The notes beneath the pieces were generated by a model that was given only the letters and a program-made list of their open reading frames with translations, was not told the origin of the DNA and ran no database searches. The translations under genes and the position numbers were made by a program. Source: Rhizobiales bacterium SYSU XM002 (lineage in GTDB: Bacteria > Pseudomonadota > Alphaproteobacteria > Rhizobiales > Beijerinckiaceae). From it: a stretch of 64,000 nucleotides of DNA. This document shows, piece after piece, positions 2,659 to 35,306 of this stretch; the stretch's first letter is position 1, and each line of letters starts with the position of its first letter. The DNA lies in NCBI GenBank assembly GCA_009846685.1, contig VWVY01000009.1, positions 1-64,000 on the forward strand, written 5' to 3'.

Positions 2659-2662
2659 CAAG

Positions 2663-2715
2663 GTGCGAACAAGAGAGGGCTTCCGGTGGAAACGTCGGGG
2701 GCCTTTTTCTTTTGT
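2663..2715 (+). ncRNA. counter-transcribed RNA between repB and repC (incompatibility RNA)
   Basis: A short transcript starting about 7 bp after the candidate -10 would run antisense to the repC leader. It ends in a hairpin: AGG plus CTTCC on the left (2676-2684, with one bulged G) pairs with GGGGG plus CCT on the right (2697-2704), followed by a T-rich run (TTTTTCTTTT). In repABC plasmids such an RNA of about 50-60 nt, encoded in this gap on the opposite strand, represses RepC synthesis and causes incompatibility. The position, size, promoter and terminator agree; the ends are inferred. Confidence 0.72.
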
Positions 2716-2752
2716 CGAATTGTCCTTTCCTGGTTGGGTCAGTGGTTCGGGT

Positions 2753-3760: not shown

Positions 3761-4971
3761 GCATCTCTCCCCCACGCTTTGCGGATGAGCCCAAGAATCT
3801 CGCCATTCACTGCATCGAGCGATTCAATCGCACGATCATAAGTCGCACGCCCAACTGCGCCGCGATCAAGTTCATAGAGGGATTGTTTGGTGAGCCCAGC
3901 ATCAGCGATGGCAGTGGATTTCCATACCGTCGCTGCCAGCACATCATCTCCAAAGAGCCCGCGAAGCAGCGCCACGACCTGCGACTGCGGCCCATCATGA
4001 GGTTCATGCCGGGTGACAACGTAGCGAATGAAATCGTGGTGCAGATCACCGCCTGCATTGCGGACAACGGACATCAAGTCGGCCGTCATCAGCAGAAACT
4101 GCGACATCGAAGCGACGTCGACCATCTGCGGATGAATTGTCACGAGCAGCGAGGTCGCGGCACACAGCGCTCCGAGCGTCAGGTAGCCGAGCTGGGGCGG
4201 GCAATCGATGATTACCACGTCATAATCAGCCTCGACTTCGTTCAGCGCCTTGCCAACGCGCTGGAAGAACAATCCGCCAGCCGGACGACCACCTTCAAGG
4301 AGAGCTCGGGGTGTATCATGCTCAAACTCCATCAACTCGAGATTGCCGGGGATCAGATCGAGGCCGTCGAAATAGGTCTTGCGAATGCACGACTTTGCAG
4401 AACGACGGGCATCGTCGTAGCGGATAGCTCCGTAAAGCGTGTCCCCTTCCGCAAGATCGAATTCCGGCTGAAGCCCCAGCATGGCCGTCATCGAGGCCTG
4501 GGGATCAAGGTCCAGAGCCAAAACCCGATATCCGCTCAATGCAAGAAATTGTGCCAGATAAAGCGCCGTTGTTGTTTTGGCTGAGCCGCCTTTGAAGTTG
4601 ACGCAGGCGATTGTCTGAAGCCGCTCACCGGGCTTACGGTGAGGCAGAATAACGTCGGCATCACGAGGCTTGGCATTGGCGATGTAGCGCCTAAGCACGT
4701 TGATTTGTGCCAGCGTATAGGAGCGCCGGCCAGTCAGGGAAACCTCCGGCGTCGGCCCAATTCCGTCAATCGAAAGCTGGCGGAGATAACCGTCAGACAC
4801 ATTCAGCAGCCGCGCAGCCTCGCCGGAGGTAAACGACCTCAGAGATTTCCTGCTATCTGGTGGAAAGAGTCGCGACCCGAGCGACTGCAACTGCCCAGAG
4901 AGCAGCTTTGCATGCGCCGCAATTTTGGCGTCTGATGCGACCCGACCGGAACGAAGCGAAGCCGTGTCCAC
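3757..4971 (-). CDS. repA: plasmid partitioning ATPase RepA (ParA family)
   Basis: 404 residues, normal for RepA. A MerR-like helix-turn-helix sits at residues 46-95 (FTSGEAARLLNVSDGYLRQL). A deviant Walker A motif KGGSAKTTT (about 127-135) is preceded by ACVNF, and the Walker A' region reads LALDLDPQASMT. A VVIIDCPPQLG motif is typical of ParA ATPases. RepA segregates the plasmid with RepB and represses its own operon. First gene of repABC. It overlaps repB by 4 bp. The region upstream (4972-5107) carries an inverted repeat suited to autoregulation and the second parS. Confidence 0.97.
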   Translation of the reverse strand: MDTASLRSGRVASDAKIAAHAKLLSGQLQSLGSRLFPPDSRKSLRSFTSGEAARLLNVSDGYLRQLSIDGIGPTPEVSLTGRRSYTLAQINVLRRYIANAKPRDADVILPHRKPGERLQTIACVNFKGGSAKTTTALYLAQFLALSGYRVLALDLDPQASMTAMLGLQPEFDLAEGDTLYGAIRYDDARRSAKSCIRKTYFDGLDLIPGNLELMEFEHDTPRALLEGGRPAGGLFFQRVGKALNEVEADYDVVIIDCPPQLGYLTLGALCAATSLLVTIHPQMVDVASMSQFLLMTADLMSVVRNAGGDLHHDFIRYVVTRHEPHDGPQSQVVALLRGLFGDDVLAATVWKSTAIADAGLTKQSLYELDRGAVGRATYDRAIESLDAVNGEILGLIRKAWGRDA

Positions 4972-8634: not shown

Positions 8635-11600
8635 TTAGGCCGCGTTGACACGCGCCGAAGGCACGATGCGGAGCAGGGGGTAAAGGTCGAAAAGGCGGCC
8701 GAGGATTTTGGCGGCATCATCACCAACAGGCACAAAGAGCCGCAGCTTCCAGGCGATGATCTCAGAGTTCAGACCAAGGGATTTCAGGCGCTGGACATCG
8801 AGATCCGAGAACCCCGCGAGCTCGATCCGATGACGTCCCATCACAAGGGAACGCTTGAGTGTCAGCCCGTCCCGCAAAACGAGGCCAGTATTGTCACGGA
8901 TGATCGTGTCCGCAGTCTCCGCTGCCGACAGGGCAGGGGCCTCCGACAGAAGCGTTTCCTTCAATGCTGCTGCGGTCGCGGGCGAGACGAGCCGGCCAAT
9001 CAGGCGCTGGCCGCAATCGGTTTGCAATCGATAGACCCGGGTGTTCTCTTCCGGAAACTGCTTCCAGACCGGAAGAAGCAAACCGACGACCATGTGAAAG
9101 CGTGTCTCGGTGAAGGGTGGGATCTCGCCGATTTCGGTTTCCCAAGCCGAGCGAAAGCTGTTCTCATCCATCTCCCGCCATTGGGATTTCTCAAGCGCCT
9201 CAACGGGTATGACATCTCGAGCATTGGGCCGGATCAGTCTGACGCGAGGCGTCACAGAGCCATCATCCTGCATCAGGCTCGTCGTCGGGATTACGAGCGC
9301 GGCCCGTTCGGATTGCCGGTTAAGCATCAGCCGCGCCTTCGGGTTGCCATCGCGCTGTGCGAAAACCTCCCCGGCCGTTGTAATCTCAGTCCGATCCTTG
9401 CGCAGAAGCGTCATCAGCGACGTCGTGGCGCCACTGGCGTGATGGGTCGCGATGACCTTCTCCTCCTGAACCATGAGGCTCTCGGCCCGCACGGTTTCGA
9501 CGCCGATATCGAATGTTCCGGATTGCATGGCTCCTTCGATCGCTGTCTCCATCAGGCTCTCGAAGACCTCGAAGAGCTGGTTCTGGAGCGCGATCGGCAA
9601 AGCGAGGATGCGATTGAGGAACGTCGTGATGGGCGGAAGCTCTTCCAGCAGGCTACCATCCCGATCTGTGAGATTGAGCCCCGTTGCAGCCTCGAATCGC
9701 GCAAGCGAGCACGCCTCGACCTTGCCGGCATAGATCAGCTGGTAAAGCTGGCGGAGCGCAAGGCGGCCATAGACGGATTCGAGATTGTCCTCGGCCCGGA
9801 ACATGCCCTGGCCGCCGGTCTGGCGCTGTCCCCGCGTGATCGCGCCAAGCGTATCGAGACGCCGGGCAATCGTGGACAGAAACCGCTTCTCACCCTTCAC
9901 ATCACTCGCTACGGGCCGGAAAAGTGGCGGCTGCAACTGGTTGGTCCGATTGGTGCGCCCCAACCCCTGAATCGCGTTGTCGGCCTTCCAGCCGGGCTCG
10001 AGGAGGTAATGGACGCGCAGGCGCTGGTTCTTCGCCGAACGCTCGGCGTGGTAGCTCCGGCCAGTGCCACCGGCATCAGAGAACACGAGGATCCGCTTCT
10101 GATCCCCCTGAAACGCACGGGTCTCACCGAGATTGGCCGATGCAGCGCGTGTTTCGACGCAAAGGCGCTGTGAACCATCCGGGTTGGCCTTGGCGACGAT
10201 CCGCCGCGAGCGCCCGGTCACCTCCGCGACCATATCCGTCCCGAAGCGCTGGATGATCTGATCAAGCGCACCCTGAACGGCAGGGAGAGACGCGAGGTGC
10301 TCGATCAACCTGTCCCGGCGATCGATCGCCTCGCGCGATTGGATGGGGTTGCCATCCTCATCGAGGGCAGGGCGGGACTGAAGGTTCCCATCCTCGTCGG
10401 AATAGACCTCGAAGAGTTGCGTCGGGAAGGAATGCGCAAGGTAATCGAGGACATATTCCCGAGGCGTGATATCGACCGAAAGATCGTTCCATTCCGCTGT
10501 CGGGATCTCGGCAAGGCGCCGTTCGAGCAGGGCCTCGTTGGTCGAGACGATCTGGACGACCGAGGCGTGCCCTGCCTCCAAATCCGCCATGATCGCCTGG
10601 ATCAGACTCGGCGCCTTCATCGCGGTGATGAGATGGGCAAAGAAACGCTGCTTGTTCGATTCGAACGCCGAGCGCGCAGCGGACTTCGCGTTCTTGTTGT
10701 AGGATTTGCCGCCTTCGCCGGTGATATTCGCGGCCTCAAGCGCGGCATTGAGGTTGTTATGGATGATCTCGAAGGCCGAGGCATAGGCATCATAGATGCG
10801 GATCTGCTCTGATGAGAGCGGATGCTCCAACATCTCGACCTCGACACCGGCATAGGAGAGGGCGCGGGCGGTGTAGAGCCCGAGGGCTTTCAGATCGCGC
10901 GCCAGCACTTCCATGGCCGCGATCCCACCGGCCTCCATCGCCTCGACAAAGGCCTCGCGGGTGGCAAACGGCATATCCGTGGAGCCCCAGAGCCCAAGGC
11001 GAGAGGCATAGGCGAGGTTCGAAACCGTCGTCGCACCCGTCGCCGAAACATAGAGCACGCGGGCCTGCGGCAGGGCGTTCTGGAGACGAACGCCGGCGCG
11101 GCCCTGCTGCGATGCCGCCTTGTCGCCTCGTTCGCCTTTCTCAGCCGCGGCATTGGCCATCGCATGCGCTTCATCGAAGACGATGACGCCATCGAAACCA
11201 GAGCCCAGCCAATCGATGATCTGCTTCAGGCGAGACGCCTTGATCGTGCCATCCGGGCCCTGGCGTTCGTCCGAGCGCAACGTGGCATAGGTGGTGAACA
11301 GGATCCCCTCGGGAAGAGTGATCGGTGTGCCCTGCTTGAACCGGGATAGTGGGACGATCTGCAGCTTCTCCTGTGCGAGGGCTGACCAATCGCGTTGGGC
11401 GTCCTCGAGAAGCTTGTCGGATTTCGAGATCCAGAGGGCCTTTCGCCGGCCCTTTATCCAATTGTCGAGAACAATGCCCGCCACCTGGCGTCCTTTGCCG
11501 GCCCCTGTCCCGTCGCCGAGATAGAACCCGCGCCGGAACTGGAAAGCCGCCGCATCACCTTCTGCAGCGGCTTCCAGCGCATCGAAGGTCTCGTTGACGC

Positions 11601-13281
11601 GCCAGAAGCCTCCAAGGTGCTGGCCATGCGCCTCGCCGGCAAAGATCACCGTCTCGAGCTGGGCATCCGAGAGCATCCCGTCGGAAATGACTGCTTCAGG
11701 CAGATACGGTCGGTAGGAGGGTTGAGGTAACGCCACTGACGCCATGGCAGCGGATTGCACCAGCACGGTCGGATGCGGCTTGGCGCCGTTGATCACAATC
11801 GATTGGACGGAGTAGGGCTCGTAAAGCCCTGTTGCTATCTCCGCCCCGGGCGAAGCCACCTCGTCGCGAGGGACATAGGCAAGTTCGGCGATCCCGGACG
11901 CAATAGCGGCGGTCTGCGGCCCCAAATCGCCCGATGACGATGATAGTGCAACCGCGGCCGAACGGGCCGCTTCAGCCGTGGGGATTGTGATACCAGCGCT
12001 TTCTACTTCAGTACTGTCTAATGGTTCTCGTGCTGATACCGCCAACAACCCCGGCACTGGAGGGGAACCACCTCCCGCCTCCTCTCTCGACGTCACCCGC
12101 TTCGCCGCTGGATCTTCGAGCGCCGACCGCCGGCTCCGGCCGAACCCGGAGAGGCGAGAGATGGAAGGTGTTGACGGCACCGCAATAGGCGAAGCGACAA
12201 CAGGGGCGCGAAGGGGGATTACCGGCGATTGAACCCGCGCGGGCACGTGCTCTTCCACGAGAGCGAGCAGGTCGCGAAGATTGGCGACCGGCGGCAGCGG
12301 CACCGGAAACTGCCCCGGATCCGCCGCGGGAACCTTGTCGATCACCGTCAACCGGCTCTCGACATCCGTGCCATGCCGCCGGAAGAACCCGCGCCGGAGG
12401 GCGAAAGTCGCCTGAACGGTAGAGGTTTGCTGCAGTTTTTCGAAAGCGCCGCGCCAGGTTCGACCGTAGGGAGAAAAACACTCGCCTGTGATCGCGACAA
12501 GACGACCATTGGGTTCCAGGCGCGCAAGGGCTGAGCGGATATGCTCGAACGTCGCCGACGCGTGCCTTCCGGCGATCAGCGGCGATGCCGAGAAGGGCGG
12601 GTTCATGAGAACCACGCTGGGACGCAGGGCGGGATCGAGCCGATCGTGGATCTGCACGCCATCGAGCCGACCGACCGGAACCTTCGGAAACAAGCCCTTC
12701 AGCAGAGCATGCCGATCCTCGGCCCATTCGTTGAGCAGAAGCTTCGCGCCTGAGATTTCTGCCTGAACCGCAAGCATCCCCGTTCCGGCCGAAGGCTCGA
12801 GCACCACGTCATCCGGAGAAAGCTTGGCAGCCAGCGCCGCAATGAACGCCAGCTCAACCGGCGTCGAAAACTGCTGGAGCGCCTGCGAGGCTTCCGAGCG
12901 GCGGGTTTCCGTCGGAAGGAGGGTAGCAAGACGCTCGAGGATGGAAAGGACCGAGTCAGAGGACCACCCATCTCCAAGAATCGACCTGCCGAACTGCCGG
13001 AGGAACAGGACCTGCGCCGACTCGACCGCCTCGTAGGCATCTTTCCAGGACCAGAGCCCTTCGGCATCGGATCCGCCGAAGGTTTCCTCCATCGCGCGAC
13101 GCATCACGCCGGCATCGATCTTGCCGCCCGTTGCCAAGGTGCTGAGCAAGGTGCGCGCGGCCGCCAACAGGGCCGCACCGCGATCGGAAAGGGGAAGGGC
13201 AGGAAAGGGAAGGGCAAGAGTGGCAAGGGAAGCAACGCCAAGGGGTGGCGCAGCATGCAGCACGGCAGCAGAAGGGGTCAT
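8635..13281 (-). CDS. strawberry-notch-type methyltransferase/helicase fusion
   Basis: 1548 residues. Residues 140-300 form an N6-adenine methyltransferase-like domain with LEPSAGTGML (about 161-170, SAM loop) and NPPF (227-230, catalytic). A Pro/Ser-rich linker follows (about 340-500). The second half is a superfamily 2 helicase of the strawberry-notch type, with GDGTGAGKGRQVAG as Walker A (about 590-605), VIVFDEAHAMAN as motif II (about 700) and a C-terminal helicase domain with FSDAGGTGRSYHA and the GLGRTNR motif. This very large protein is a hallmark of rhizobial plasmid backbones, always near Toprim and DUF2493 genes; its role is unproven, with anti-restriction or DNA maintenance proposed. 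Intact, no frameshift seen. Confidence 0.92.
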   Translation of the reverse strand: MTPSAAVLHAAPPLGVASLATLALPFPALPLSDRGAALLAAARTLLSTLATGGKIDAGVMRRAMEETFGGSDAEGLWSWKDAYEAVESAQVLFLRQFGRSILGDGWSSDSVLSILERLATLLPTETRRSEASQALQQFSTPVELAFIAALAAKLSPDDVVLEPSAGTGMLAVQAEISGAKLLLNEWAEDRHALLKGLFPKVPVGRLDGVQIHDRLDPALRPSVVLMNPPFSASPLIAGRHASATFEHIRSALARLEPNGRLVAITGECFSPYGRTWRGAFEKLQQTSTVQATFALRRGFFRRHGTDVESRLTVIDKVPAADPGQFPVPLPPVANLRDLLALVEEHVPARVQSPVIPLRAPVVASPIAVPSTPSISRLSGFGRSRRSALEDPAAKRVTSREEAGGGSPPVPGLLAVSAREPLDSTEVESAGITIPTAEAARSAAVALSSSSGDLGPQTAAIASGIAELAYVPRDEVASPGAEIATGLYEPYSVQSIVINGAKPHPTVLVQSAAMASVALPQPSYRPYLPEAVISDGMLSDAQLETVIFAGEAHGQHLGGFWRVNETFDALEAAAEGDAAAFQFRRGFYLGDGTGAGKGRQVAGIVLDNWIKGRRKALWISKSDKLLEDAQRDWSALAQEKLQIVPLSRFKQGTPITLPEGILFTTYATLRSDERQGPDGTIKASRLKQIIDWLGSGFDGVIVFDEAHAMANAAAEKGERGDKAASQQGRAGVRLQNALPQARVLYVSATGATTVSNLAYASRLGLWGSTDMPFATREAFVEAMEAGGIAAMEVLARDLKALGLYTARALSYAGVEVEMLEHPLSSEQIRIYDAYASAFEIIHNNLNAALEAANITGEGGKSYNKNAKSAARSAFESNKQRFFAHLITAMKAPSLIQAIMADLEAGHASVVQIVSTNEALLERRLAEIPTAEWNDLSVDITPREYVLDYLAHSFPTQLFEVYSDEDGNLQSRPALDEDGNPIQSREAIDRRDRLIEHLASLPAVQGALDQIIQRFGTDMVAEVTGRSRRIVAKANPDGSQRLCVETRAASANLGETRAFQGDQKRILVFSDAGGTGRSYHAERSAKNQRLRVHYLLEPGWKADNAIQGLGRTNRTNQLQPPLFRPVASDVKGEKRFLSTIARRLDTLGAITRGQRQTGGQGMFRAEDNLESVYGRLALRQLYQLIYAGKVEACSLARFEAATGLNLTDRDGSLLEELPPITTFLNRILALPIALQNQLFEVFESLMETAIEGAMQSGTFDIGVETVRAESLMVQEEKVIATHHASGATTSLMTLLRKDRTEITTAGEVFAQRDGNPKARLMLNRQSERAALVIPTTSLMQDDGSVTPRVRLIRPNARDVIPVEALEKSQWREMDENSFRSAWETEIGEIPPFTETRFHMVVGLLLPVWKQFPEENTRVYRLQTDCGQRLIGRLVSPATAAALKETLLSEAPALSAAETADTIIRDNTGLVLRDGLTLKRSLVMGRHRIELAGFSDLDVQRLKSLGLNSEIIAWKLRLFVPVGDDAAKILGRLFDLYPLLRIVPSARVNAA

Positions 13282-13415
13282 CGCAAGTCTCCGGATTGGC
13301 AGGAACCAGCCCGGAAAACTCTCTCTTCACCTCCCGGGCTTCATGCGCCCGAAACCACCCCAACCTCTCACGGCATCATACCGTCCCGATCCTCCCGGAA
13401 TGCGCAGAGCCGTCG

Positions 13416-14135
13416 CTAATACACGACAATCGGATCGAGATGGCGATCGGTTTCAAGGCGCATCGCTGAACGCCACAACGGCGTCTTGACATACGTCTGA
13501 TCAGCGCCGCGATACCCGTCCCCGATACGTTCCAGGAGACCAAGCCAGCACAGTGGTCGCAGCACCTGCCCCCAGAAACTGCTCATGATCTCGTCGTAGC
13601 CGGATGACCGGTCCGGTTCACCGAAGAGCGCGCAACGCAGTGCGAGACCTGTCGCGCCGGCGTCAACCTCGACATTGATGACATTGAGGTAGATGTCCCA
13701 ATGCCGCATCTGCATCTCATCGCCAAACCGGGAATACCGTCCGTGGTCGACCTCCAGAAGGTAGAACGGTGCCAACCTCGCGAAGAGCTGTCCGGGACGC
13801 CCGGCCAAGCCTTTACCCTCAGCCGTCAGACGGAACGTCCCCTTGAAATGGCGGGCGAGCTTCATGGCCAGCATGACATCGTGAAGCTCCACCAACGGAT
13901 AGAAGTCGAGTTCGTTGAGAACCTTGTTCACCGCGTAGAGATCGGCTGGTCGATAGTCCGGCCAATCGAAGGCTTCAGCCGCCCACTCGACGAAATGCCG
14001 CTTCAAGCCACCGGATTTGGTGAGGCCGATCGGGCCGTTTTCTGCGACATGGGCTAGCGTCTTTTCGATGCTCCGGATCATCGGCGAATGAACAAGCGTC
14101 GGCTCCGTGTCGGCGAGTTCCCGGAAATATCTCAT
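13416..14135 (-). CDS. conserved plasmid hypothetical protein
   Basis: 239 residues, not recognised as a named family. The sequence is well mixed and globular: an N-terminal helical part (MRYFRELADTEPTLVHSPMI), a GLTKSGGLKRHFVEWA segment resembling the start of a winged-helix unit, and a C-terminal stretch (FWGQVLRPLCWLGLLERIG) suited to a second winged helix. No signal peptide or membrane segment. It follows the same strand as the helicase gene (134-bp gap) and is the last backbone gene before the dab cassette. A DNA-binding role is only a guess. Confidence 0.6.
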   Translation of the reverse strand: MRYFRELADTEPTLVHSPMIRSIEKTLAHVAENGPIGLTKSGGLKRHFVEWAAEAFDWPDYRPADLYAVNKVLNELDFYPLVELHDVMLAMKLARHFKGTFRLTAEGKGLAGRPGQLFARLAPFYLLEVDHGRYSRFGDEMQMRHWDIYLNVINVEVDAGATGLALRCALFGEPDRSSGYDEIMSSFWGQVLRPLCWLGLLERIGDGYRGADQTYVKTPLWRSAMRLETDRHLDPIVVY

Positions 14136-14365
14136 CGCTGATTTCGAGCACGAGCTAGGCTATGCGGCAAGCCTCGCGACATGAGGTTCATGAGCAGTGG
14201 TGACGCCGGGTCGACCGTCTTCTTGGGGGCCGAAAGCGGAATGGTAGAAATTTGACAGACATAGCTTGGAGCAGACGGGCAGTTTTTGTCAATGCATCAC
14301 GAGGTGGCTGTCGTAGAGGCGCCGACATTATATGATCTTCGCACGGTAATATTATCTGGCTCTGA

Positions 14366-15238
14366 TCAAGACTTTAGGACAACGTCGATCAATGGATTTG
14401 GAAATCGGCGCGCCAACGTGACGGCACAGAACGTTTCGACGATGCCCTCAAACCGAGTTAATTCCACCAGTGTCCCCAGTTCGAGTTCATCACGAACGAC
14501 AATGGGAGGAATGATCGCCAAGCCGGCGTTGGCCCTCGCGAGAAGGCGGATCATAGCCATATCGTCCACCTCGGCAGCGATGGTTGGCGTTACGGCTAAG
14601 CGGGCGACAAGCGCGTCGAACGCCGCTCGCAAGGCGGTTTCCGGTGTCGGCAGGATCAGAGGTTCCGTCGCCAGCAAGTCTCGCAGTTGACGCCCGTGGC
14701 GACCGACACGATCCGGTGTGCCAATCAGGCCGATCGGCTGTTCGTCAAGCCGATGTACCAGCCACGAACTTGCGGCGTCGCGTGCCGGCGGAAGGTTGGT
14801 TAGCACCACATCCAGTGCAAGGCTCTCCAGACCACGCAACAAATGCGCCTGACTGCCCGACCGGAGCACGACTTCCACATCGCTCCGGCCGATCAGCGGG
14901 GCGAGAAACTGCATCTGAAAATTTCGGGACAAGGTGGCGAGGGCGCCGACACGAAGGGCACGGCGGGCACGGCCGGTTTCCTGCAATGTCGCAGTCAGAT
15001 CATCTGCGGTGCGGAAAATGGCCTCAGCATGATCCAGTGCAATGCGCCCCGCCTCTGTCAGCACAAGGCCACGGCCGCGACGCTCGAAAAGATCGTGACC
15101 TAGCGAGGCTTCAAGCGCCTTCAGCTGGGTGGAAAGCGCAGATTGCGACAGGTTGAGCCGGCGGGCCGCGCCCGTCAGCGTGCCATCACCGGCGACGGCG
15201 CGAAACAGGCGGAGGTGATGCAGGTTCAGTTGAGCCAT
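14366..15238 (-). CDS. LysR-family regulator, divergent from dabBA
   Basis: 290 residues from MAQLNLHHLRLFRAV. The N-terminal helix-turn-helix (residues 5-65; TGAARRLNLSQSALSTQLKALE) is classic LysR, and the segment LFERRGRGLVLTEAG is closer by eye to NhaR-type than to CbbR-type regulators. The effector domain follows (residues 90-290). It is transcribed away from dabB with a 112-bp AT-rich gap, the usual layout for a LysR regulator and its target. It probably controls the inorganic-carbon uptake genes; the signal is unknown. The open frame extends to 15604 but runs antisense into dabB, so the later ATG was chosen. Confidence 0.88.
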   Translation of the reverse strand: MAQLNLHHLRLFRAVAGDGTLTGAARRLNLSQSALSTQLKALEASLGHDLFERRGRGLVLTEAGRIALDHAEAIFRTADDLTATLQETGRARRALRVGALATLSRNFQMQFLAPLIGRSDVEVVLRSGSQAHLLRGLESLALDVVLTNLPPARDAASSWLVHRLDEQPIGLIGTPDRVGRHGRQLRDLLATEPLILPTPETALRAAFDALVARLAVTPTIAAEVDDMAMIRLLARANAGLAIIPPIVVRDELELGTLVELTRFEGIVETFCAVTLARRFPNPLIDVVLKS

Positions 15239-15350
15239 TGTTCTATTAAATCGAATTATTTTCTCTATTATATGTAATTTTCTGGAATTTCGGCAAGCGC
15301 TAGAAGCCCAATCACTCTTCAGATGGATTGACGCCGAGAGGAAAGCCGTC
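15239..15350. promoter_or_regulatory. divergent lysR-dabB promoter region
   Basis: 112 bp, markedly AT-rich in its first 50 bp. It holds TTA-N7-TTA (15246-15258), which fits the general LysR/CbbR T-N11-A pattern, and a second AT-rich segment TATTATATGTAATTTTC next to it. These sites would overlap the lysR promoter and lie upstream of dabB. Binding is inferred. Confidence 0.45.
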
Positions 15351-16913
15351 ATGACCAGTCCGCTGCTGTTCTCCGCCTTCCCCGTGACCTTGCTCGCGCC
15401 ACTGGTGCTGCTGGCCATGGCCGGTCTTTGCCTGTCGCGTCCCGGTCGGCGTCCCGGCCGACTTCCTGCCCTGGCGGAAGCCGCGACATTGGCGGCTGCC
15501 GGACTTGGCTTCGCCGGTATGGCCCGACTGTGGGTATCCGGCAAGGCGACCCTGCACATCGGCGGGCTGCCATTGTTCAGGCTCGACACGAACAGCCTGA
15601 CCATGGTGCTCCTCGTGGCTTTCGTCGGCTGGGTCGTGGTGCGCTACGCGCGGCGCTATCTGGACGGCGAGGCGCGGGAAGGCATGTTCCACGCGCTGAC
15701 GTTGGCCGGCATTGCGGTTGTGCTGTTGCTTGTTCAGGCTGCCAACCTCGCCATCCTTGCTGCGGCCTTTGTGGCCATCGGCATCGTGCTGCGGCAATTG
15801 CTGCTCTTCTATCCCGACCGCGCGGAGGCCAGGCGAGCTGCCGCCAAGTTCAGCCGAGTCTGGGGTGCGGGCGATGCCGCGCTAATCATCGCGACAGCCC
15901 TTCTCTGGAACGCCTTCGGCACGCTGGACATCGCGACGATCAACCAGAGGGCCGCCGTCGGCCTCTCGATGGGCGGCCAGATTGCGGTAGCCTTTTTGGT
16001 CTTGTCCGCAGCGTTGAAGACAGCCTCGTTTCCGCTCCACGGTTGGCTGACCGAGGTGATGGAAGCCCCCACGCCGGTCTCTGCACTTCTCCATGCTGGC
16101 ATCATCAATTCCGGCGGCGTTCTCCTGATCACGCTGGCCGGTCTGGTGCAGCAGAGCCCCGGCGCGATGGCTGCGCTGGTGATGGTCGGCGGCCTTACGG
16201 CGCTGTTCGGTGGTGTGGTTATGCTGACGCAGAGCGCGGTCAAGACAGCGCTTGCCTGGTCAACCGTGGCGCAGATGGGCTTCATGCTGCTGCAATGTGG
16301 CCTCGGGCTGTGGCCGCTGGCTCTGCTCCACATCGTTGCGCATTCGCTCTACAAGGCCCAAGCCTTCCTGGGTTCGGGCAGTGCGGTGATGGCCGTGAAT
16401 GCCATCCGCAAGCCGGGGCTCGTTGCCGTGCCGGGGCTTGGTGCGGTGGCCAAGTCCTTCGCGCTGGCGCTGGCGCTCTACGGCGTCGTAGCGCTTGCCT
16501 TCTCGTTTGTCATTGCCCCGAAATCACCACAGGCCGTGGCGCTCGGCACAATGCTGATCTTCGGCGTGTCCTATCTGATCGCGCAGGGGATGGCCGATGC
16601 CGCGCCGGGGGCGCTGACAGTGCGGACCGTCCGGGCCTCGCTGGCTGCCGCCCTCGCCTATTTCGGCTTCCAGGTGGTGGCACAGGCGATCTGGGGCCCG
16701 ACCCTGCCACCCGCCCCGGCACCCGGGCCGCTGGAATGGGCGCTGATTGTCCTCGCTGTGCTGTCCTTCGGTCTCGTCGCGGGTGCCCAGGCGCTGTTCC
16801 CGCTCTGGGCGCACCATCCGGCAACAGCGGGCCTGCGGGTCCACCTTGCCAACGGTCTTTACCTCAATGCCGTCCTCGATCGGATGATCGGCGGCTTCCG
16901 CACCTCGCCCTGA
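15351..16913 (+). CDS. dabB: DabB, NuoL-like proton-conducting subunit of a CO2 uptake complex
   Basis: 520 residues, mostly hydrophobic with about 13-14 predicted membrane segments. The proton-transporter core of NuoL/MrpA-type proteins is visible: ASFPLHGWLTEVMEAPTPVS, then ALLHAGIINSGGVLL, then KTALAWSTVAQMGFMLLQ. DabB is thought to use the proton or cation gradient to drive the carbonic-anhydrase-like DabA partner. The identification as DabB rather than a respiratory subunit rests on the immediately following dabA (22-bp gap) and the absence of any other NADH dehydrogenase gene. A GAGAGGAAA ribosome binding site precedes the ATG. Confidence 0.93.
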   Translation: MTSPLLFSAFPVTLLAPLVLLAMAGLCLSRPGRRPGRLPALAEAATLAAAGLGFAGMARLWVSGKATLHIGGLPLFRLDTNSLTMVLLVAFVGWVVVRYARRYLDGEAREGMFHALTLAGIAVVLLLVQAANLAILAAAFVAIGIVLRQLLLFYPDRAEARRAAAKFSRVWGAGDAALIIATALLWNAFGTLDIATINQRAAVGLSMGGQIAVAFLVLSAALKTASFPLHGWLTEVMEAPTPVSALLHAGIINSGGVLLITLAGLVQQSPGAMAALVMVGGLTALFGGVVMLTQSAVKTALAWSTVAQMGFMLLQCGLGLWPLALLHIVAHSLYKAQAFLGSGSAVMAVNAIRKPGLVAVPGLGAVAKSFALALALYGVVALAFSFVIAPKSPQAVALGTMLIFGVSYLIAQGMADAAPGALTVRTVRASLAAALAYFGFQVVAQAIWGPTLPPAPAPGPLEWALIVLAVLSFGLVAGAQALFPLWAHHPATAGLRVHLANGLYLNAVLDRMIGGFRTSP

Positions 16914-16935
16914 TCCCCACCGGAAGGAGCTTCCC

Positions 16936-19302
16936 ATGTTCGCGACCTCAATGCAGATTGCCCCGAACCGGATCAACCAGATCATCTATGCAGCGGAAAC
17001 GGCCGGGCGTGCCATTCCCCCCGCCTTCCCATTGGATGCCACGGTGGCGGTGAACCCCTTCCTTGGCCAGATCGGCGAAGACCTGGCCCATGCCTCGGCC
17101 AGATTGAGCCGGGTTGCAGGAATTCGGCTGACCAGAGCGCGGAAGGAATATGCGCAGCTTATCGATGCCGGCGACATCACGGATACCGATCTTGCGGATG
17201 CGTTAGCCGCCTGCACCTCGCCGCTGGCCCCGCCGACGATGGAATTTCTGAAATCAAGCATGGGGCAACCCGGGCGGCTCTCCCAGCCCTTGCCGAGCGT
17301 GGCCGATCTCGCCGCCAAAATGACAGGAACCGATTGGCCTGCCGTGGTCAGCCGCAGCTTCGGCCTGTGGGCGGCAGGCCATTTCGACCGCGGCCAGGCC
17401 TTGTGGACACCCAGGCCCGGTCATGGTGCCTATGCGGCCTGGCGGGAATGGGCAACGCATGATCTTACACCTGAAATTGCCGGGCTTGCCGGCTTCTGTG
17501 CGCATGTCGTCGAAGCCCCTGATACGCCGGATCGGGCTATCCTGCGGGCAGCGGAGACTCTCAACCTGACAGCGGAAGCGGCTGAAACCGTATTCCACCG
17601 GCTTCTCATCGATCTGGGCGGCTGGGCCCAGCATGCGCGCTGGATGCTATGGAAAGCCGAACTGGCCGGGGGTGGCGACACGACGTTGACCGATCTTCTG
17701 GCCATCCGGCTGATCTGGGAAGAAGCGCTGCTGGCACATGCGCCCTCGATCAGCGCGACATGGCAGAAGGCGGTTGATGCCCATGCCGAGCCAATCCGGC
17801 CTGATGCCGACCAGGTGATCGACGCAATCTTGCAGGATGCCGCTGAGCGTGCCCATCAGCGGAAGCTGGCGGCGGCCTTGTCTGGCCCCGTCACCCGGAC
17901 CACGAGGCCCAACTTGCAGGCGGTCTTCTGCATCGATGTCCGGTCCGAAGTGTTCCGGCGGGCCCTCGAAAGCCAGGACGCCGGCATCGAAACCGCAGGT
18001 TTTGCCGGGTTTTTCGGACTGCCGCTCGGCCATCGGCCGCAAGGTACCGATGAAGTGACCGCCCATCTTCCTGCCCTTCTCAAACCGGCACTGGTGGCGA
18101 CGAGCCATGTCGATCAGACCACCGAAGCGGCGACCCGGATCCGGGCACGGGCAAGCCGCGCTTGGGGCCGGTTCCGGCAAGCGGCCGTCTCGTCTTTCGC
18201 TTTCGTCGAGGCCGCCGGTCCAGCCTATGGCGCCAAACTGGTCTGCGATTCGCTCGGCGTGGGTGGCAACGGCATGGCGGCCGAACCCTTGCCGCGTATC
18301 GAAGGGCGGTTCACGGCGGAACAAAAAGCCCAGACCGCTGCAACTATCCTCCGGGCCATGAGCATGACGACCGGGCATGGGAGGCTCGTGCTGCTGATCG
18401 GCCACGGTGCCCAGCTGCGGAACAACCCGCACCAGAGCGCCTATCATTGCGGGGCCTGCTGCGGCCAGACCGGCGAGGTTTCGTCGCGGCTGCTCGCCGC
18501 GCTCCTCAATGATCCCGAAACCCGAGCAGGGCTGCCGGCGCATGGCATCATCCTGCCGGCAGACACCCACTTCATGGCAGGTTTGCATGATACAGTGACT
18601 GACACTGTCACGCTTTATGCTGATACCTCCGCGCCGGATCATGTTACCGACATAGCGCGGGCGAAGACATGGCTTGCCAAGGCCGGCGCCCAAGCGCGAG
18701 CCGAGCGGGCGCCGAAACTGCCTGGCGCAGCGGCAGCCAGCCTCTTGCGCCGGGCAACCGATTGGGCGGAAGTCCGGCCGGAATGGGGCCTAGCTGGCTG
18801 TGCCGCCTTTATCGCCGCACCGCGGGACGCCACGGCCGGCCGTGACCTTTCAGGCCGCGCCTTCCTGCACAATTATGACTGGAAGGCAGACAGGGACTTT
18901 GCGACACTGGAACTGATCCTCACCGCGCCCGTCGTGGTGGCCAGCTGGATCAGTTTGCAATATTACGGCTCGACCATTGCCCCGGAGCTTTTTGGCGGGG
19001 GCAACAAGCTGATCCACAACGTGGTCGGCGGGATCGGCGTGGTGGAAGGCAACGGGGGCACACTGCGCCCCGGGCTGCCCTGGCAGAGTGTCCATGACGG
19101 TGCGAAAGCGGCACATGATGCGCTGCGGTTGTCGGTGATGGTTGAGGCACCGACAGAGGCAATCATTGCGGTCCTGCGTGAGCACGAAACGGTTCGCCAA
19201 CTTTTTGACAATGGCTGGCTTCATCTTTTTGCTTTGGAAGGAGGCCGGGTGAAAACGAGGTATCGGACTGGCTTGCGCTGGGAGGACCAGAACGTCATAT
19301 GA
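16936..19302 (+). CDS. dabA: DabA (DUF2309), zinc-dependent CO2-hydrating subunit
   Basis: 788 residues, typical of DUF2309. DabA proteins have a beta-carbonic-anhydrase-like zinc site formed by Cys, Asp, His and Cys; the matching residues here are C332 and D334 in FCIDVRSE, H490 in LIGHGAQL and C505 in YHCGACC. With DabB it forms an energy-coupled complex that hydrates CO2 to bicarbonate in the cytoplasm in one direction, supplying carbon for carboxylases (described in Halothiobacillus; related MpsAB in Staphylococcus). The start at 16936 follows an AAGGAG site. All key residues are intact, so it should be active. Confidence 0.94.
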   Translation: MFATSMQIAPNRINQIIYAAETAGRAIPPAFPLDATVAVNPFLGQIGEDLAHASARLSRVAGIRLTRARKEYAQLIDAGDITDTDLADALAACTSPLAPPTMEFLKSSMGQPGRLSQPLPSVADLAAKMTGTDWPAVVSRSFGLWAAGHFDRGQALWTPRPGHGAYAAWREWATHDLTPEIAGLAGFCAHVVEAPDTPDRAILRAAETLNLTAEAAETVFHRLLIDLGGWAQHARWMLWKAELAGGGDTTLTDLLAIRLIWEEALLAHAPSISATWQKAVDAHAEPIRPDADQVIDAILQDAAERAHQRKLAAALSGPVTRTTRPNLQAVFCIDVRSEVFRRALESQDAGIETAGFAGFFGLPLGHRPQGTDEVTAHLPALLKPALVATSHVDQTTEAATRIRARASRAWGRFRQAAVSSFAFVEAAGPAYGAKLVCDSLGVGGNGMAAEPLPRIEGRFTAEQKAQTAATILRAMSMTTGHGRLVLLIGHGAQLRNNPHQSAYHCGACCGQTGEVSSRLLAALLNDPETRAGLPAHGIILPADTHFMAGLHDTVTDTVTLYADTSAPDHVTDIARAKTWLAKAGAQARAERAPKLPGAAAASLLRRATDWAEVRPEWGLAGCAAFIAAPRDATAGRDLSGRAFLHNYDWKADRDFATLELILTAPVVVASWISLQYYGSTIAPELFGGGNKLIHNVVGGIGVVEGNGGTLRPGLPWQSVHDGAKAAHDALRLSVMVEAPTEAIIAVLREHETVRQLFDNGWLHLFALEGGRVKTRYRTGLRWEDQNVI

Positions 19303-19455
19303 TCGCAGCATGAAGTTGGCTGATGGTGTCCCACTGTGCCCGAAGCACGGTACCTCTTTGGTCATTCGCCAGCACTGTCAGGCTCCTCGGAACGTTCGGT
19401 TCCGGTCCACTACCGTGCAGCCTTGGACGACCGCAATGGGGGCGCGAAGCTGCCG
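19303..19455. other. dab cassette right junction, no gene seen
   Basis: 153 bp between the dabA stop and the stop of the next minus-strand backbone gene. Two 10-20 bp GC-rich partial dyads (around GGAACGTTCGGTTCC at 19390-19404) are present, but no clear transposon end or tRNA remnant was recognised. Confidence 0.4.
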
Positions 19456-20100
19456 TTAGCCAAATCTGGCTCCCGCCCCGGTAAAGGTATACCCGTTGGC
19501 CATGACGCCCTCGTCCACGGCATCGTCCGATATCTGGTACTCGTATTCCCGCTCGAGTTGCCGGTATAGCCACCGCGCGAGATCGCGCAGGGCTTCGGAA
19601 ACGGTCGCCTCGGCATTGGGTGTCGGCGGCTGATATCGGTCACCGCTCCGCTCAATCGAAATCTCCATCGAATGCTCGTGGTAGTACCGCCCCCGATGGG
19701 TGGCCCGGGCTTCGAGGGCATAGAGGTTCCTGCGCTGGATCATCTGGAGTTGATCCGCGATGGTAGCGAGGCGTTCGTCCTTGGGTGCATAGGCGCGGAT
19801 TTCGCGCGCCGCACCCTTGCGATAGCTGTACCTGCCTTCGAAGCACGCCCCATCGCCCTGGCTCGAAAAGCCCGAGAACCAGATGCAGGGCTTCTGGCGG
19901 ATACCCCCGCCGTAGAGGCGGACGGGTCGGGTTGCGAGATGCACACCGAGGATTTCGCAGATCTGCTCGAAATCCTCGAAGATGAACTCGTGCCAGTCAT
20001 CATGGGGTAGGCCTTCGCGATACCAGTTGCGAGCGCGCTCCCTGGCGCGCTCGTCGAGTTCGTCGAAGGTGTACACAGTGGTTTCGATCACCTCAGGCAT
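19456..20100 (-). CDS. conserved plasmid hypothetical protein
   Basis: 214 residues from MPEVIETTVYTFDELDERAR. The N-terminus (VYTFDELDERARERARNWYRE) is highly charged and recurs in a family found on phages and plasmids of unknown function. Residues 25-60 contain DDWHEFIFEDFEQICEILGV, then IWFSGFSSQGDGACFEGRYSY, all conserved-looking aromatic and acidic positions. No membrane segment. It overlaps the upstream gene by 8 bp (20093-20100), so the two are co-translated. It begins the second half of the backbone after the dab cassette. Confidence 0.72.
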   Translation of the reverse strand: MPEVIETTVYTFDELDERARERARNWYREGLPHDDWHEFIFEDFEQICEILGVHLATRPVRLYGGGIRQKPCIWFSGFSSQGDGACFEGRYSYRKGAAREIRAYAPKDERLATIADQLQMIQRRNLYALEARATHRGRYYHEHSMEISIERSGDRYQPPTPNAEATVSEALRDLARWLYRQLEREYEYQISDDAVDEGVMANGYTFTGAGARFG

Positions 20101-20470
20101 GGGGGAGCTCCCGGATCGGGGAATGGGGATCAAGGTCCACTTCTATCTTTTGCGTCCGCCCCATCCAGGGCGCCGGCTGAATGGCCCGGACCCAGTCGGC
20201 AAAGCTCGGGATGAAGCCGAGATCCTCGGTGACATGCTGTTCGCCCACCCAGCGCGTCGGGATGATGCGGCCCGATGAAAGCGTGATCGTCATGCCGAAG
20301 ATCGTCTCGGCCATGAAGATGCCCTCGGCATGATGGCGAAGCGCCCGGTGGCGAAAATCCGCGATGATCTCCTTGGAGGCATCGAACCAGGCGTGGATAG
20401 CGAGATAATCCTCGACGCGGCCGCCCCATTTCTTCTGTGAGGAGAGAGCGTGGTGATAGGGATGAGCCAT
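20093..20470 (-). CDS. DUF6915-like plasmid protein
   Basis: 125 residues from MAHPYHHALSSQKKWGG. This small protein, seen on many bacterial plasmids and phages, has the pattern PYHHALSS.KKWGG, then FRHRALRHHAEGIF, then GEQHVTEDLG. The family name is from memory and has no known function. His-rich positions (HH, HR.LRHH) suggest metal or nucleotide contacts, but this is speculation. A GGAGG site lies 7 bp before the ATG. Co-translated with the 19456-20100 gene. Confidence 0.75.
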   Translation of the reverse strand: MAHPYHHALSSQKKWGGRVEDYLAIHAWFDASKEIIADFRHRALRHHAEGIFMAETIFGMTITLSSGRIIPTRWVGEQHVTEDLGFIPSFADWVRAIQPAPWMGRTQKIEVDLDPHSPIRELPHA

Positions 20471-20482
20471 GGCCACCTCCGC

Positions 20483-20986
20483 TCAGAACGTGTGGGAATA
20501 AAATTCGGAGGCGGTGATCCGTTCGTTGTAGTCGAGCCGGATCTCGAGGGCGGGGGCATCAAAGACGAACTCACCATAGGCGCCCTCGTTGTTCTCCCAG
20601 CCACCATGGGTTTCGCTCAGGGCGTCGTATACGAGATGTTCGATCGCCTCGGTCACGGTCATCGAGCGGGGTTCCGGTTCGGGCCTGCCCCAAACAATGG
20701 CAACGATGGCGATGGTCTCTGGCGGGAGGGACACCTCGGCACCGGAGGCCGCTCGGGCGGCGATGCTCTCGATCTGGCCGCTGTCGCCATAGCCGTCGAA
20801 CGAGACGGTAACCGTCGAAATCCCAGCGCCGGCAAGCGCCGCAAAGACGGCGGCCTTGTTGGCAGGGCGAAAGCTCGCCCGGGCGGCATTCTCCGTGGCG
20901 ATTTGGGTCATGATGTCGGCCATGGTGACGGGCAACACGACGAGAGGTTTGTTGTCGGGGTCGGGATTGGTCGGCTGATTAGACAT
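20483..20986 (-). CDS. DUF6878-like plasmid protein
   Basis: 167 residues. The central part (NKAAVFAALAGAGISTVTVSFDGYGDSGQIESI) and the C-terminal GGWENNEGAYGEFVFDAP segment are typical of a family found in rhizobial plasmid backbones, which I recall as DUF6878. Function unknown. The preceding ~20 residues are Pro/Asn/Asp-rich and probably disordered. It sits 12 bp upstream of the DUF6915-like gene on the same strand, in one operon with it and probably with the large parB. Confidence 0.75.
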   Translation of the reverse strand: MSNQPTNPDPDNKPLVVLPVTMADIMTQIATENAARASFRPANKAAVFAALAGAGISTVTVSFDGYGDSGQIESIAARAASGAEVSLPPETIAIVAIVWGRPEPEPRSMTVTEAIEHLVYDALSETHGGWENNEGAYGEFVFDAPALEIRLDYNERITASEFYSHTF

Positions 20987-21060
20987 TTGAGGTCTCCTGA
21001 ACGGGAATAGCCCGGCGCGAGCTTGTCTCGGCCGGGCAGGGAAGGGGATTCGGCTGGTGG

Positions 21061-23190
21061 TTATTCCGCGGCGACAGCGTGAGCAGCGGATTGGGGCAGT
21101 GCCTCGCGCAGGAATGCCGGGAGTTCGACGGGATGATCATCCTCTTCCGAGGCTACCCGATCGCTCTTTGTGGGCGGCAGCACGTCTGTCGCCAGCGTCA
21201 TCTGCGGAGGCGCCGTATCCAGTGAGGATCGCAAGGGCTCGGGCAGCCAGTTCGCGCCGGCGACGAGCCGTTCGGCCTCGATCGCCATATCGGACTTCTT
21301 GAGATGATCGATCATCTGAGCATGCGCGTCACCCTTCACCTCTCGAACCGTCGAGAGGATCTGCGCCTTCGTCACCTTCCCGAAATAGCTCTTCGCGGTC
21401 GCGGACCAATGCCGGCGCATGTCGAGCCCGAGGTGATCGGCGAGGTGATCGGCATGCGCGAGTTCCCGCGTCCGGCGCACATGCGGAAGACGGAGCGCGT
21501 TGAGACCCGTCGAGACACACCAGGCAAAGAGCGCCGCCAGAGAATCCGGGTCAAAGCCGACGAGCGTAGCCCAGAGATCTCCAGGGTCCTTCGGCAGCAT
21601 CCCCGCCCAGCGCGTCTGTCGCGCCTCCATCCGTGCGGCGATCTCGCTTTGGCCGAGATCGGGCGCCTGCGTGTCGAGCGTCGTCGGACGAAGATCGATC
21701 TCGAGACAGGTGTCGGCGCCGGCAAAGCGATAGAAGGTCTTGAGTGCCAGCGCATGGGTGAGGGCAAGAAGTGCGGTATCCGGGTCGTCGGCCAGTGCCT
21801 CACGCAAGGCGATGGTCCGATAGGCCGTGAGTTCTGCAACGAGACGATCAGACAACCGAGTATGGGATTCCACGCCCTCGGCATCCTCCTCCGATCCGGG
21901 CCCAAGTTGATTGTCCGTGGCAGCGCTCGACATCGCACTCTCGCCTTGCCTCGCCGCGCCGTCAGCAGAATTTGGTGGCAGGGACGTCCGATCCTCCGGC
22001 CGGATGAAACCGCGTTCGATGCGCAGGCGCCCGTCATCCTCGATGCTCAAGAAGACACCGGCGTGTCCGATCTCGTCCGTGAGAAAGGTTTCGGGGCGTT
22101 CATCGATGCTGGCCATGATCGCTTCGAGATCCGCCATCCGCTCGTCGATCTCGTAGGGGAGTTCTTCAACGCCCTCGTATTCTTCGGAGAGGGTGTCGTA
22201 CGCCGCAAGCGCCGCGTCGTAGCGCGCCTGCTCCTCGTCCGTGACCTCAGCTGGGGTGGAGGAGAGCCGCGTCAATCCGTTGAGATGTCCGTAGGGGAAC
22301 TGCAGCGCGGTCTCGACCCATTTCCAGCCCTCGGCGCGGATTTCCATTGCGGCTCCCGCGAGCTTCTCGGTGGCCAGTCGCTCAAGAAGGATGACATCCT
22401 GATACCAACCGCCGCCATCCTCCGAGAAGAGATCGCGCAGGATGATGCCGCCGGCGGCTTCATAGGCCTCGGCACCGACGAAGAGGACGCGGCGGTCATT
22501 GCCCTTGACCGCACCTTCCGTGAGAAGACGGCGGATCGTGTAGGGCTCCCTGGAATAGCCATGCCGGATCTGCTCCCAGATCGCTTCCTGACGCGCGTGA
22601 TCGCAGGTGACGCAGAAGGCCATAAGCTGATCGAGCGTCATCTCGTTCTCAGCATAGGCTGCGAGCAGCACGAGGCTTGCCGAGGCGAGCTTGAGGCGCT
22701 GGCGCACAATCTGAGGGGTGACAAAGAACCGCGCCGCGATGTCCTCGACGGACAGACCCTCGTCATCCGCCAGTGCCTTGAACGCACGAAACTGGTCGAG
22801 CGGATGCAGCCCCGCGCGCATCATGTTCTCCGCGAGCGAATCCTCGACCTCAATGCCCGACGCTTTGACCAGGCAGGGGATGGGATGATCCGGCGCAATC
22901 CGACCTTCGACGCTGAGTTTCTGGAGCGCCGCCAGACGTCGCCCCCCAGCCTGAACCGCGAATTGACCGGTCTCCTGACCGGCCTCATCGGTCACGGGAC
23001 GGACGGAAAGGGACTGGAGAAGGCCACGCCGCGCGATATCCTCGGCCAATTCGCTGATACTCGCGCCCGATCCAATCCGCCGGACATTGGCGCCAGAGGC
23101 TAAAAGCTGACACAGCGGGATTTCCAGAGGCGAGGCCAGCGCGCTGATCGCAGAAGGTGTTTCAGGGGTACACGGGGTCGTTTCGGTCAT
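21061..23190 (-). CDS. large ParB/Srx-domain plasmid protein
   Basis: 709 residues from MTETTPCTPETPSA. Residues 25-130 form a ParB/sulfiredoxin fold (QLLASGANVRRIG, GGRRLAALQKLS), and residues 130-220 a ParB helix-turn-helix part (LSVEDIAARFFVTPQIVRQRLKLA). The long C-terminal half, unlike canonical ParB, has no recognised domain but is conserved in plasmid proteins of this class. A distinct repB already serves the repABC partition system, so this protein probably has another role, for example in gene regulation or DNA organisation. Alternative starts at 23205 and 23196 are possible. Confidence 0.88.
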   Translation of the reverse strand: MTETTPCTPETPSAISALASPLEIPLCQLLASGANVRRIGSGASISELAEDIARRGLLQSLSVRPVTDEAGQETGQFAVQAGGRRLAALQKLSVEGRIAPDHPIPCLVKASGIEVEDSLAENMMRAGLHPLDQFRAFKALADDEGLSVEDIAARFFVTPQIVRQRLKLASASLVLLAAYAENEMTLDQLMAFCVTCDHARQEAIWEQIRHGYSREPYTIRRLLTEGAVKGNDRRVLFVGAEAYEAAGGIILRDLFSEDGGGWYQDVILLERLATEKLAGAAMEIRAEGWKWVETALQFPYGHLNGLTRLSSTPAEVTDEEQARYDAALAAYDTLSEEYEGVEELPYEIDERMADLEAIMASIDERPETFLTDEIGHAGVFLSIEDDGRLRIERGFIRPEDRTSLPPNSADGAARQGESAMSSAATDNQLGPGSEEDAEGVESHTRLSDRLVAELTAYRTIALREALADDPDTALLALTHALALKTFYRFAGADTCLEIDLRPTTLDTQAPDLGQSEIAARMEARQTRWAGMLPKDPGDLWATLVGFDPDSLAALFAWCVSTGLNALRLPHVRRTRELAHADHLADHLGLDMRRHWSATAKSYFGKVTKAQILSTVREVKGDAHAQMIDHLKKSDMAIEAERLVAGANWLPEPLRSSLDTAPPQMTLATDVLPPTKSDRVASEEDDHPVELPAFLREALPQSAAHAVAAE

Positions 23191-23316
23191 CACCGTCATC
23201 TCCACGACGGCCGGGGAAAACCTCTCTCTTCCCCTTCCAAACCGTCACAGAACCCCGCCCACTCTCTCCCTCCGGCCATACGTCAGGTGACGCACGCCCA
23301 AGTGAAAAGGTTCACA

Positions 23317-35296: not shown

Positions 35297-35306
35297 AGGA
35301 AATCCC

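Follow-up and report, generated by a model that had tools for sequence, protein, structure and literature searches.

The window, the whole stretch of 64,000 nucleotides analysed here, holds a group of three genes at one locus. A LysR-type regulator of 290 aa (14366..15238, minus strand; PF00126/PF03466) is divergent from dabB (15351..16913, plus strand), which encodes a NuoL-like, putatively proton-conducting membrane subunit of 520 aa. Next to it lies dabA (16936..19302, plus strand), encoding a beta-carbonic-anhydrase-like zinc subunit of 788 aa that was identified by PF10070 and residue alignment. The PF10070 match (819 bits) spans positions 2-747 of the 747-position profile, its full length, and a Pfam search of DabB returned PF00361 and PF00662. 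The nearest solved structure to DabB by sequence is DabB2 in 9rd0. With both genes intact and neighbouring, these matches bear out the initial annotation of a complete DabAB pair.

Both proteins were aligned to DAB2 (DabA2-DabB2) of Halothiobacillus neapolitanus (PDB 9rd0/9rd8/9rd9), which likewise consists of two subunits from these families, and compared at residues named in PMC13144422. With the solved DAB2 complex as reference, 11 of 11 checked residues are kept in DabA and 9 of 11 in DabB. C332, D334, H490 and C505 of DabA pair with C351, D353, H524 and C539 of DAB2. All four had been put forward as zinc ligands. The residues were correctly picked, but in DAB2 the ligands are C351, H524 and C539, and D353, the partner of D334, is part of an Asp-Arg dyad (PMC13144422). 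DabA thus carries the Cys2His zinc site and the dyad (C332, D334, R336, H490, C505), together with the "finger" glutamate (E425, equivalent to DAB2 E444). In DabB, the proton-path residues S244, H248, K298, S304, H327, H331 and K335 are retained, as are D175 and K223. With zinc site, dyad, finger glutamate and an adjacent DabB all present, we assign the pair by sequence to the DabA/DabB inorganic-carbon complex (DAB/DAC).

The two deviations in DabB are Gly at position 182 and Val at position 151. In DAB2, R182A lowered the yield and I151E halved it (PMC13144422), and the two deviations count against the pump reading. The window pair also differs from DAB2 in being plasmid-borne and in belonging to a host genome without a match to carboxysome shell proteins.

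A related possibility is that the pair resembles MpsAB, acting as a sodium/bicarbonate symporter or mainly in sodium/pH homeostasis and not as a proton-driven CO2 hydrase. DabB does fall in NuoL/Mrp-like families, and the homologue MpsAB is argued to use sodium (PMC13144422). According to the same source, however, DAB2 needed no sodium and failed to rescue a sodium-transporter mutant, and the window DabA retains the zinc, Asp-Arg and E444-equivalent residues. We consider a sodium-based role very improbable.

The divergent LysR gene had been recognized correctly in presence and orientation, but its start had been set at 15604, which over-extends it. Coding score, homologue alignments and the position of the HTH domain all point to ATG 15238, which we therefore took as the start, so that LysR and dabB do not overlap. 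The resulting 112-bp gap contains two conserved elements. The near-palindrome TTCTATTAAATCGAA (15241..15255) is a candidate LysR operator with the pattern TTC-N9-GAA, found in 29 of 37 LysR-dabB gaps (200 shuffles: mean 1.01, max 4). A stricter 15-mer form of this pattern recurs at four further window positions and is not unique. The second element, TATATGTAATTTT (15269..15281, plus strand), follows TGTA[AT]TTTT, which also occurs in 29 of 37 gaps (shuffles: mean 0.07, max 2). It has a single match within the window, allowing up to 1 mismatch, and is absent from the gap alignment rows of the congener copies L079-L082. The term LysR is absent from the main text of two papers, and regulation is not treated in the consulted sections of PMC13144422.

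The cassette lies on a plasmid. The contig that holds the window (C15) has an exact 127-base end overlap and is probably a 102.5-kb circle. The replication/partition module of repC, repB and repA (1275..4971, minus strand) was confirmed. A VirB-type type IV secretion block with a VirD4/TraG coupling protein occupies 31959..43129 on the plus strand (VirB4, VirB5-like, VirB6, VirB8, VirB10, VirB11 and VirD4 families); VirB1, B2, B3, B7 and B9 had no match or lay outside the scan. Beyond the window, a VirD2-like relaxase is encoded at C15:84724-86742 (PF03432, 34 bits against a cut-off of 24.6). The replicon thereby has the gene set of a conjugative plasmid, namely repABC, secretion ATPases with channel parts, a coupling protein and a relaxase. 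Judged from its genes, the description of it as conjugative-type holds, and the plasmid is probably self-transmissible. The accompanying claim that all backbone genes are on the minus strand applies beside the cassette (repABC, toprim, sbn, the 214-aa, 125-aa, DUF6878 and ParB-like genes) but not to the VirB block at ~31-43 kb, which is on the plus strand.

Comparison with related plasmids delimited a 6.1-kb non-backbone segment (13343..19434) between two backbone genes. DNA similarity to the backbone of congener G016 ends at 13342 and restarts at 19435, and similarity to contig 4 of congener G006 ends at 13343 and restarts at 19476. The left flank is the strawberry-notch gene sbn (8635..13281, minus strand; PF13872/PF13871), matched in 657 plasmid records, 406 of which cover at least 80% of it. 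The right flank begins with a 214-aa backbone protein without a Pfam family (19456..20100, minus strand; 105 plasmid records) and continues with genes for a 125-aa protein, DUF6878 and a ParB-like protein (20093..23199, minus strand). Besides LysR-dabB-dabA, the segment includes an ORF for a 239-aa plasmid protein (13416..14135, minus strand) that is matched in 226 plasmid records. This protein had no family match in Pfam, NCBIfam or PADLOC and no tblastn match among the 12 backbone loci compared.

Among the plasmids compared, seven, including the window's, showed both flanks, and they hold six different slot contents. The other six contain toxin-antitoxin, defence-like or other cargo; dab occurs solely in the window. 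DabA is without a match in G016 and in G006, and the remaining four have no annotated dab in the slot. Celeribacter indicus pP73C, Ponticoccus alexandrii p-SCP2 and Roseovarius indicus pRIdsm_01 (typed conjugative) share the flank order sbn, cargo, 214-aa, 125-aa and DUF6878, but their cargo is a RES/Xre or AbiEii/DUF6088 pair. Six plasmids were named both among the best 40 of the 657 sbn records and among the best 30 of the 105 records for the 214-aa protein, and four of these were examined. In Rhodobacter xanthinilyticus NZ_CP017782 and Sphingopyxis indica NZ_CP076395, sbn and the best 214-aa match are widely separated. The lysR-dabB-dabA genes sit in a variable cargo slot of the plasmid backbone.

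We also considered candidate empty slots. G003, G007 and three Methylocystis plasmids have parB near sbn, but the 214-aa gene is absent from the fetched stretch, and these are therefore not empty versions of the slot. A fully empty version was not found among the sbn plasmids compared. Within the fetched stretch, contig 17 of G006 shows the left flank alone. Entry by a recognizable mobile element was rejected as well. No direct or inverted repeat of at least 10 bases was found between 13250-14400 and 19290-19520, and the Tn3-type transposase and resolvase of this plasmid are encoded away from the cassette (C15:96170-99855).

The order LysR-dabB-dabA is the usual arrangement of such loci. Of 37 loci examined elsewhere than in the window, 36 show it, and the exception (L016) is truncated 60 bases ahead of dabA. 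All 8 annotated plasmid loci show it too (of 10 fetched, four of which belong to the 37). The closest DabA relatives are Rhodobacterales proteins of up to 74% identity; congener copies share 55-57%. In a tree of 36 DabA rows, which omits L035 and L082 because their matches are incomplete, the window copy falls within a 20-row clade of Rhodobacterales and one Devosia (100/99), with support of 89/62 at its own fork. Congeners G008, G010 and G011 form a separate group with one Geminicoccaceae row (100/100). Rhodobacterales loci (Tabrizicola, Rhodobacter, Gemmobacter and others) with DabA ~71-74% identical share the divergent three-gene order and the gap elements with the window copy, whose plasmid carries VirB genes and a relaxase gene. 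Since the window DabA groups with Rhodobacterales and not with the congeners, it was probably acquired.

The cassette could instead have been in this plasmid lineage for a long time and have been lost by relatives, with no recent insertion. The lack of detected terminal repeats is compatible with long residence, as is the window DabA's own branch (0.41 against a median end branch of 0.22). Such a history appears unlikely given that none of the six other same-flank plasmids has dab, and that the window DabA stands apart from congener copies in the tree. The earlier impression of an inserted cassette agrees with these comparisons and with the lack of a DabA match in the four congeners that carry sbn (G003, G006, G007 and G016).

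The supposed rarity of plasmid-borne DAB is unsupported. It is common, with DabA matches in 123 of 72,556 plasmid records, among which 3 are typed conjugative. DabA is likewise plasmid-borne in Fuscovulum ytuae unnamed2, Paracoccus marcusii, Phaeobacter and Ensifer adhaerens E-60 p-2, the last being the one of the three conjugative records that was examined. The placement differs, as 0 of 267 matching records span 80% of positions 13240-20600 (slot and flank edges). Plasmid-borne dab was the topic of none of the titles listed, in a coverage that leaves out most subscription journals.

The absence of carboxylase genes had led to the suggestion that the benefit might not be autotrophy. That absence was stated because 64 kb alone was in view. 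A search of the host genome located a cbb operon on contig C14 that includes the gene for the large subunit of RuBisCO. C14 also carries cbbF, cbbP, transketolase, aldolase, cbbX, ribulose-phosphate epimerase and a CbbR-like gene, and soxB is present in the genome. Searches for hydrogenase and a photosynthetic reaction centre gave no match. Carboxysome shell proteins (PF00936), expected for a carboxysomal CO2-concentrating mechanism, had 0 matches across the host genome. The genome encodes three beta-carbonic anhydrases, which could dissipate a bicarbonate pool and in that respect count against a pump.

These cbb genes raise the possibility that in this host the cassette mainly serves to supply RuBisCO with CO2, perhaps under shared regulation with the cbb operon. 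C14 (117,860 b) has 51 TTC-N9-GAA sites, just two of which reach a self-complementarity of 12/15 or more. One of the two is found where the CbbR-like gene starts, in the intergenic stretch preceding cbbF, paralleling the dab site at the LysR start. It may, however, be the cbb regulator's own site, and the two regulators are 28% identical. The missing shell match and the three beta-carbonic anhydrases also weigh against a RuBisCO role, as do congeners G006 and G016, with strong RuBisCO and no DabA, and G008, G010 and G011, with the reverse. Family-wide coupling was not found: DabA and strong RuBisCO occurred together in 6 genomes against 5.7 expected (397 family genomes; counts by eye), no association beyond chance. 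The two surveys were taken as the same 397 genomes from their equal numbers and handles. The RuBisCO count was limited to matches at E <= 1e-89 (54 genomes), a threshold that drops shorter matches and RuBisCO-like proteins, including a weak one in DabA genome G223. DabA was counted above the Pfam cut-off (42 genomes), which drops G012. As 36 of the 42 DabA genomes lack a strong RuBisCO match, DAB is no marker of autotrophy in this sample. A primary role in RuBisCO supply is therefore doubtful, though a less remote prospect than the alternatives above, and bicarbonate supply outside autotrophy, as originally suggested, is still a fair reading.

We favour, at a probability of about 0.8, the reading that DabAB was acquired as a ready-made lysR-dabB-dabA cassette in a RepABC plasmid slot, and that it would act as a vectorial CO2 hydrase that is powered by the PMF and provides bicarbonate when CO2 is low. 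By homology to DAB2, DabB would pass protons down the membrane gradient and DabA would use this flow for the one-way hydration of CO2 to bicarbonate, so that the cytoplasmic bicarbonate level rises under CO2 scarcity. The divergent LysR probably binds the candidate TTC-N9-GAA site and would turn dabBA on at low inorganic carbon. Bicarbonate would then go to bicarbonate-dependent carboxylases. In a host with a Calvin cycle, three beta-carbonic anhydrases and no shell genes, it may also aid CO2 fixation indirectly.

The pump itself is of a known kind; its placement and the conserved control site are mildly new. With that site, the regulation of alphaproteobacterial DAB systems can be tested directly. 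More speculatively, and we think improbably, a conjugative RepABC family took up a self-regulated CO2 pump in a slot often given to toxin-antitoxin or defence genes, low-CO2 fitness moves as a plasmid trait between autotrophic and heterotrophic alphaproteobacteria, and the plasmid regulator could act on a host Calvin-cycle promoter via an operator type common to both. Should the cassette be functional and the plasmid undergo transfer, a single mating could confer growth at air-level CO2, and the slot would be an example of a metabolic gene set swapped for toxin-antitoxin or defence genes.

The stretch between sbn, a strawberry-notch backbone gene on the left, and a 214-aa gene on the right is a cargo slot, because seven plasmids with both flanks, the window included, hold six different contents. 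Among these seven, dab genes occurred in the window only. The initial annotation had read the cassette as inserted, and comparison with relatives lacking dabAB bore this out, as backbone similarity breaks at both ends of the slot and slot content differs from plasmid to plasmid. DNA similarity to congener G016 ends at 13342 and restarts at 19435, and that to contig 4 of congener G006 ends at 13343 and restarts at 19476. The 6.1-kb window slot contains a 239-aa plasmid protein and LysR-dabBA. The slots of the other plasmids hold about 11 kb in G016 (including a CAP12/Pycsar-type TIR protein, a patatin-like protein, and an M78 peptidase), about 9.8 kb in G006 contig 4 (alpha/beta hydrolase and TPR protein), a shared RES/Xre pair in Celeribacter pP73C and Roseovarius pRIdsm_01, an AbiEii/DUF6088 pair in Ponticoccus p-SCP2, and antitoxin genes in Sulfitobacter pontiacus unnamed06. 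The G016 cargo (contig 24, fetched stretches L054 from 15037 to L056 3638) is defence-like, with the M78 peptidase resembling capP and a further protein weakly matching RTasMBL and LmuA.

The sbn gene itself is 86% identical in G016, present as two copies at 79% in G006, and lower in G003 and G007; no DabA match was found in any of these four sbn-carrying congener genomes. The stretch fetched from G006 contig 17 had the left flank only. In five more plasmids (three Methylocystis, G003, and G007) parB lies near sbn, and the stretch fetched was without the 214-aa gene. No empty version of the slot was found among the plasmids compared, and a search for direct and inverted repeats of at least 10 b revealed no terminal repeats at the slot ends. 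The 239-aa protein gene (13416-14135) has no family match and has matches in 226 plasmid records; in two records examined, it sits beside SIR2 and integrase genes and beside toxin-antitoxin and copper genes, respectively.

The cassette is real and intact, as initially annotated: DabA (16936-19302, plus strand, 788 aa) gives a full-length match to PF10070 (819 bits), and DabB (15351-16913, plus strand, 520 aa) matches proton-conducting families. A longer LysR form reaching into dabB was not upheld; domains, coding score, and homologues instead all begin at an inner ATG, giving a 290-aa protein (14366-15238, minus strand). Both subunits resemble the solved DabA2-DabB2 complex of Halothiobacillus neapolitanus (DAB2, PDB 9rd0), with E values of 3.9e-147 for DabA and 2.4e-64 for DabB. 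Using residue positions from PMC13144422, DabA was identical to DAB2 at all 11 positions checked (C351, D353, R355, S356, A376, E444, H524, C539, H585, D590, and L658), and DabB at nine of 11, the exceptions being Gly at 182 and Val at 151. Activity would still be expected, because single changes to the ion pairs around 151/182 in DAB2 lowered yield by 30 to 60% while still permitting rescue, according to that paper.

The window makes up the first 64,000 b of a 102,624-b contig, and the exact 127-b overlap of the contig ends suggests a circle of about 102.5 kb. The contig has repABC and matches to the VirB4, VirB5-like, VirB6, VirB8, VirB10, VirB11, and VirD4 families of type IV secretion, with a VirD2-like relaxase beyond the window. 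From these genes the replicon is predicted to be conjugative, several small VirB parts being without a match or outside the scan. The contig (C15) also bears a copper/heavy-metal-like block (50666-61469 and C15:66524-74650) of two P-type ATPases, multicopper oxidases, a cupredoxin, an outer-membrane efflux protein, and an RND pump. Also present are amino-acid-type ABC transporter genes accompanied by a Cys/Met PLP enzyme and by a LysR gene running divergently (43151-49508), and a Tn3-family transposase with a divergent resolvase (C15:96170-99855).

Gene order was conserved. Of 37 loci outside the window, comprising 29 from an exact-peptide-pattern scan, four of the 123 plasmids with a DabA match, and four congener stretches, 36 have divergent LysR, dabB, and dabA in the window's order; at the exception, L016, the contig starts 60 b ahead of dabA. 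All eight annotated plasmid loci agreed (10 fetched, two without annotation). Two elements, TTC-N9-GAA and TGTA[AT]TTTT, each occurred in 29 of 37 LysR-dabB gaps, the window included; 200 shuffles gave means of 1.01 (maximum 4) and 0.07 (maximum 2), respectively, which overstate significance because the gap sequences are related. The four distant congener gaps all retained the first element and none the second. The window site is TTCTATTAAATCGAA (15241-15255). A stricter form of the pattern recurs at four further places in the window, and the motif by itself is not specific. Downstream, a DUF6671 gene follows dabA in Fuscovulum and Aminobacter (loci L008, L092, and L095, counting Mesorhizobium terrae); the order in M. 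terrae is dabA, cysD, DUF6671 gene, and the window's dabA has the 214-aa gene as the next gene call.

DabA matches were present in five of 17 genomes of the genus, including the window's own; the others comprised three full copies, 55-57% identical to the window DabA, and one partial copy at a contig end. In a 36-row tree, whose named rows were collected by searching with exact peptide patterns taken from the query, a scan that favours close relatives, the window DabA fell inside a 20-row clade (100/99) made up of Rhodobacterales and one Devosia, its exact position within the clade being unsettled. Congeners G008, G010, and G011 formed a separate 100/100 group with a Geminicoccaceae MAG, a separation independent of the scan bias. 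The dab system itself is of a known kind: DabA matched 123 of 72,556 plasmid records (107 covering at least 80% of the protein), typed as 110 non-mobilizable, 10 mobilizable, and three conjugative, among the last Ensifer adhaerens E-60 p-2. The slot, donor signal, and conserved gap site are modest additions.

The lack of carboxylase genes noted for the window does not extend to the whole genome. Another of its contigs, C14, encodes cbbF, cbbP, transketolase, class II aldolase, RuBisCO large subunit, cbbX, and ribulose-phosphate epimerase above cut-off, and a CbbR-like gene below it (332 bits; cut-off 450); a RuBisCO small subunit was not identified among these cbb genes. Near-palindromes make up two of 51 TTC-N9-GAA sites on C14. 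One, TTCAAAAATTTTGAA (C14:78496-78510), sits where the CbbR-like gene starts, matches the dab site in form and placement, and may belong to that regulator itself. C14 also has, at 97648-116566, two very long reading frames side by side on the minus strand (2447 and 3863 codons). The genome encodes SoxB (845 bits; cut-off 550) and three beta-carbonic anhydrases, with no match to NiFe hydrogenase, photosynthetic reaction centre, or BMC shell protein, and we infer a thiosulfate-oxidising facultative autotroph.

Calvin cycle support is a rival, or second, role for the cassette. Across 397 genomes of the family, counted by eye, DabA (above cut-off) occurred in 42 and RuBisCO (E <= 1e-89) in 54, with both in six versus 5.7 expected (Fisher p 0.81). 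Among the congeners, DabA is present and a RuBisCO match absent in G008, G010, and G011; G006 and G016 show the opposite pattern. PMC10880623 states that CO2-dependent autotrophs still require bicarbonate to make oxaloacetate and pyrimidines, and that combining transporters with cytoplasmic carbonic anhydrase is problematic unless expression is separated or moderate. Because of these counts, the congener pattern, and these statements, we prefer bicarbonate supply at low CO2 as the role of the cassette.
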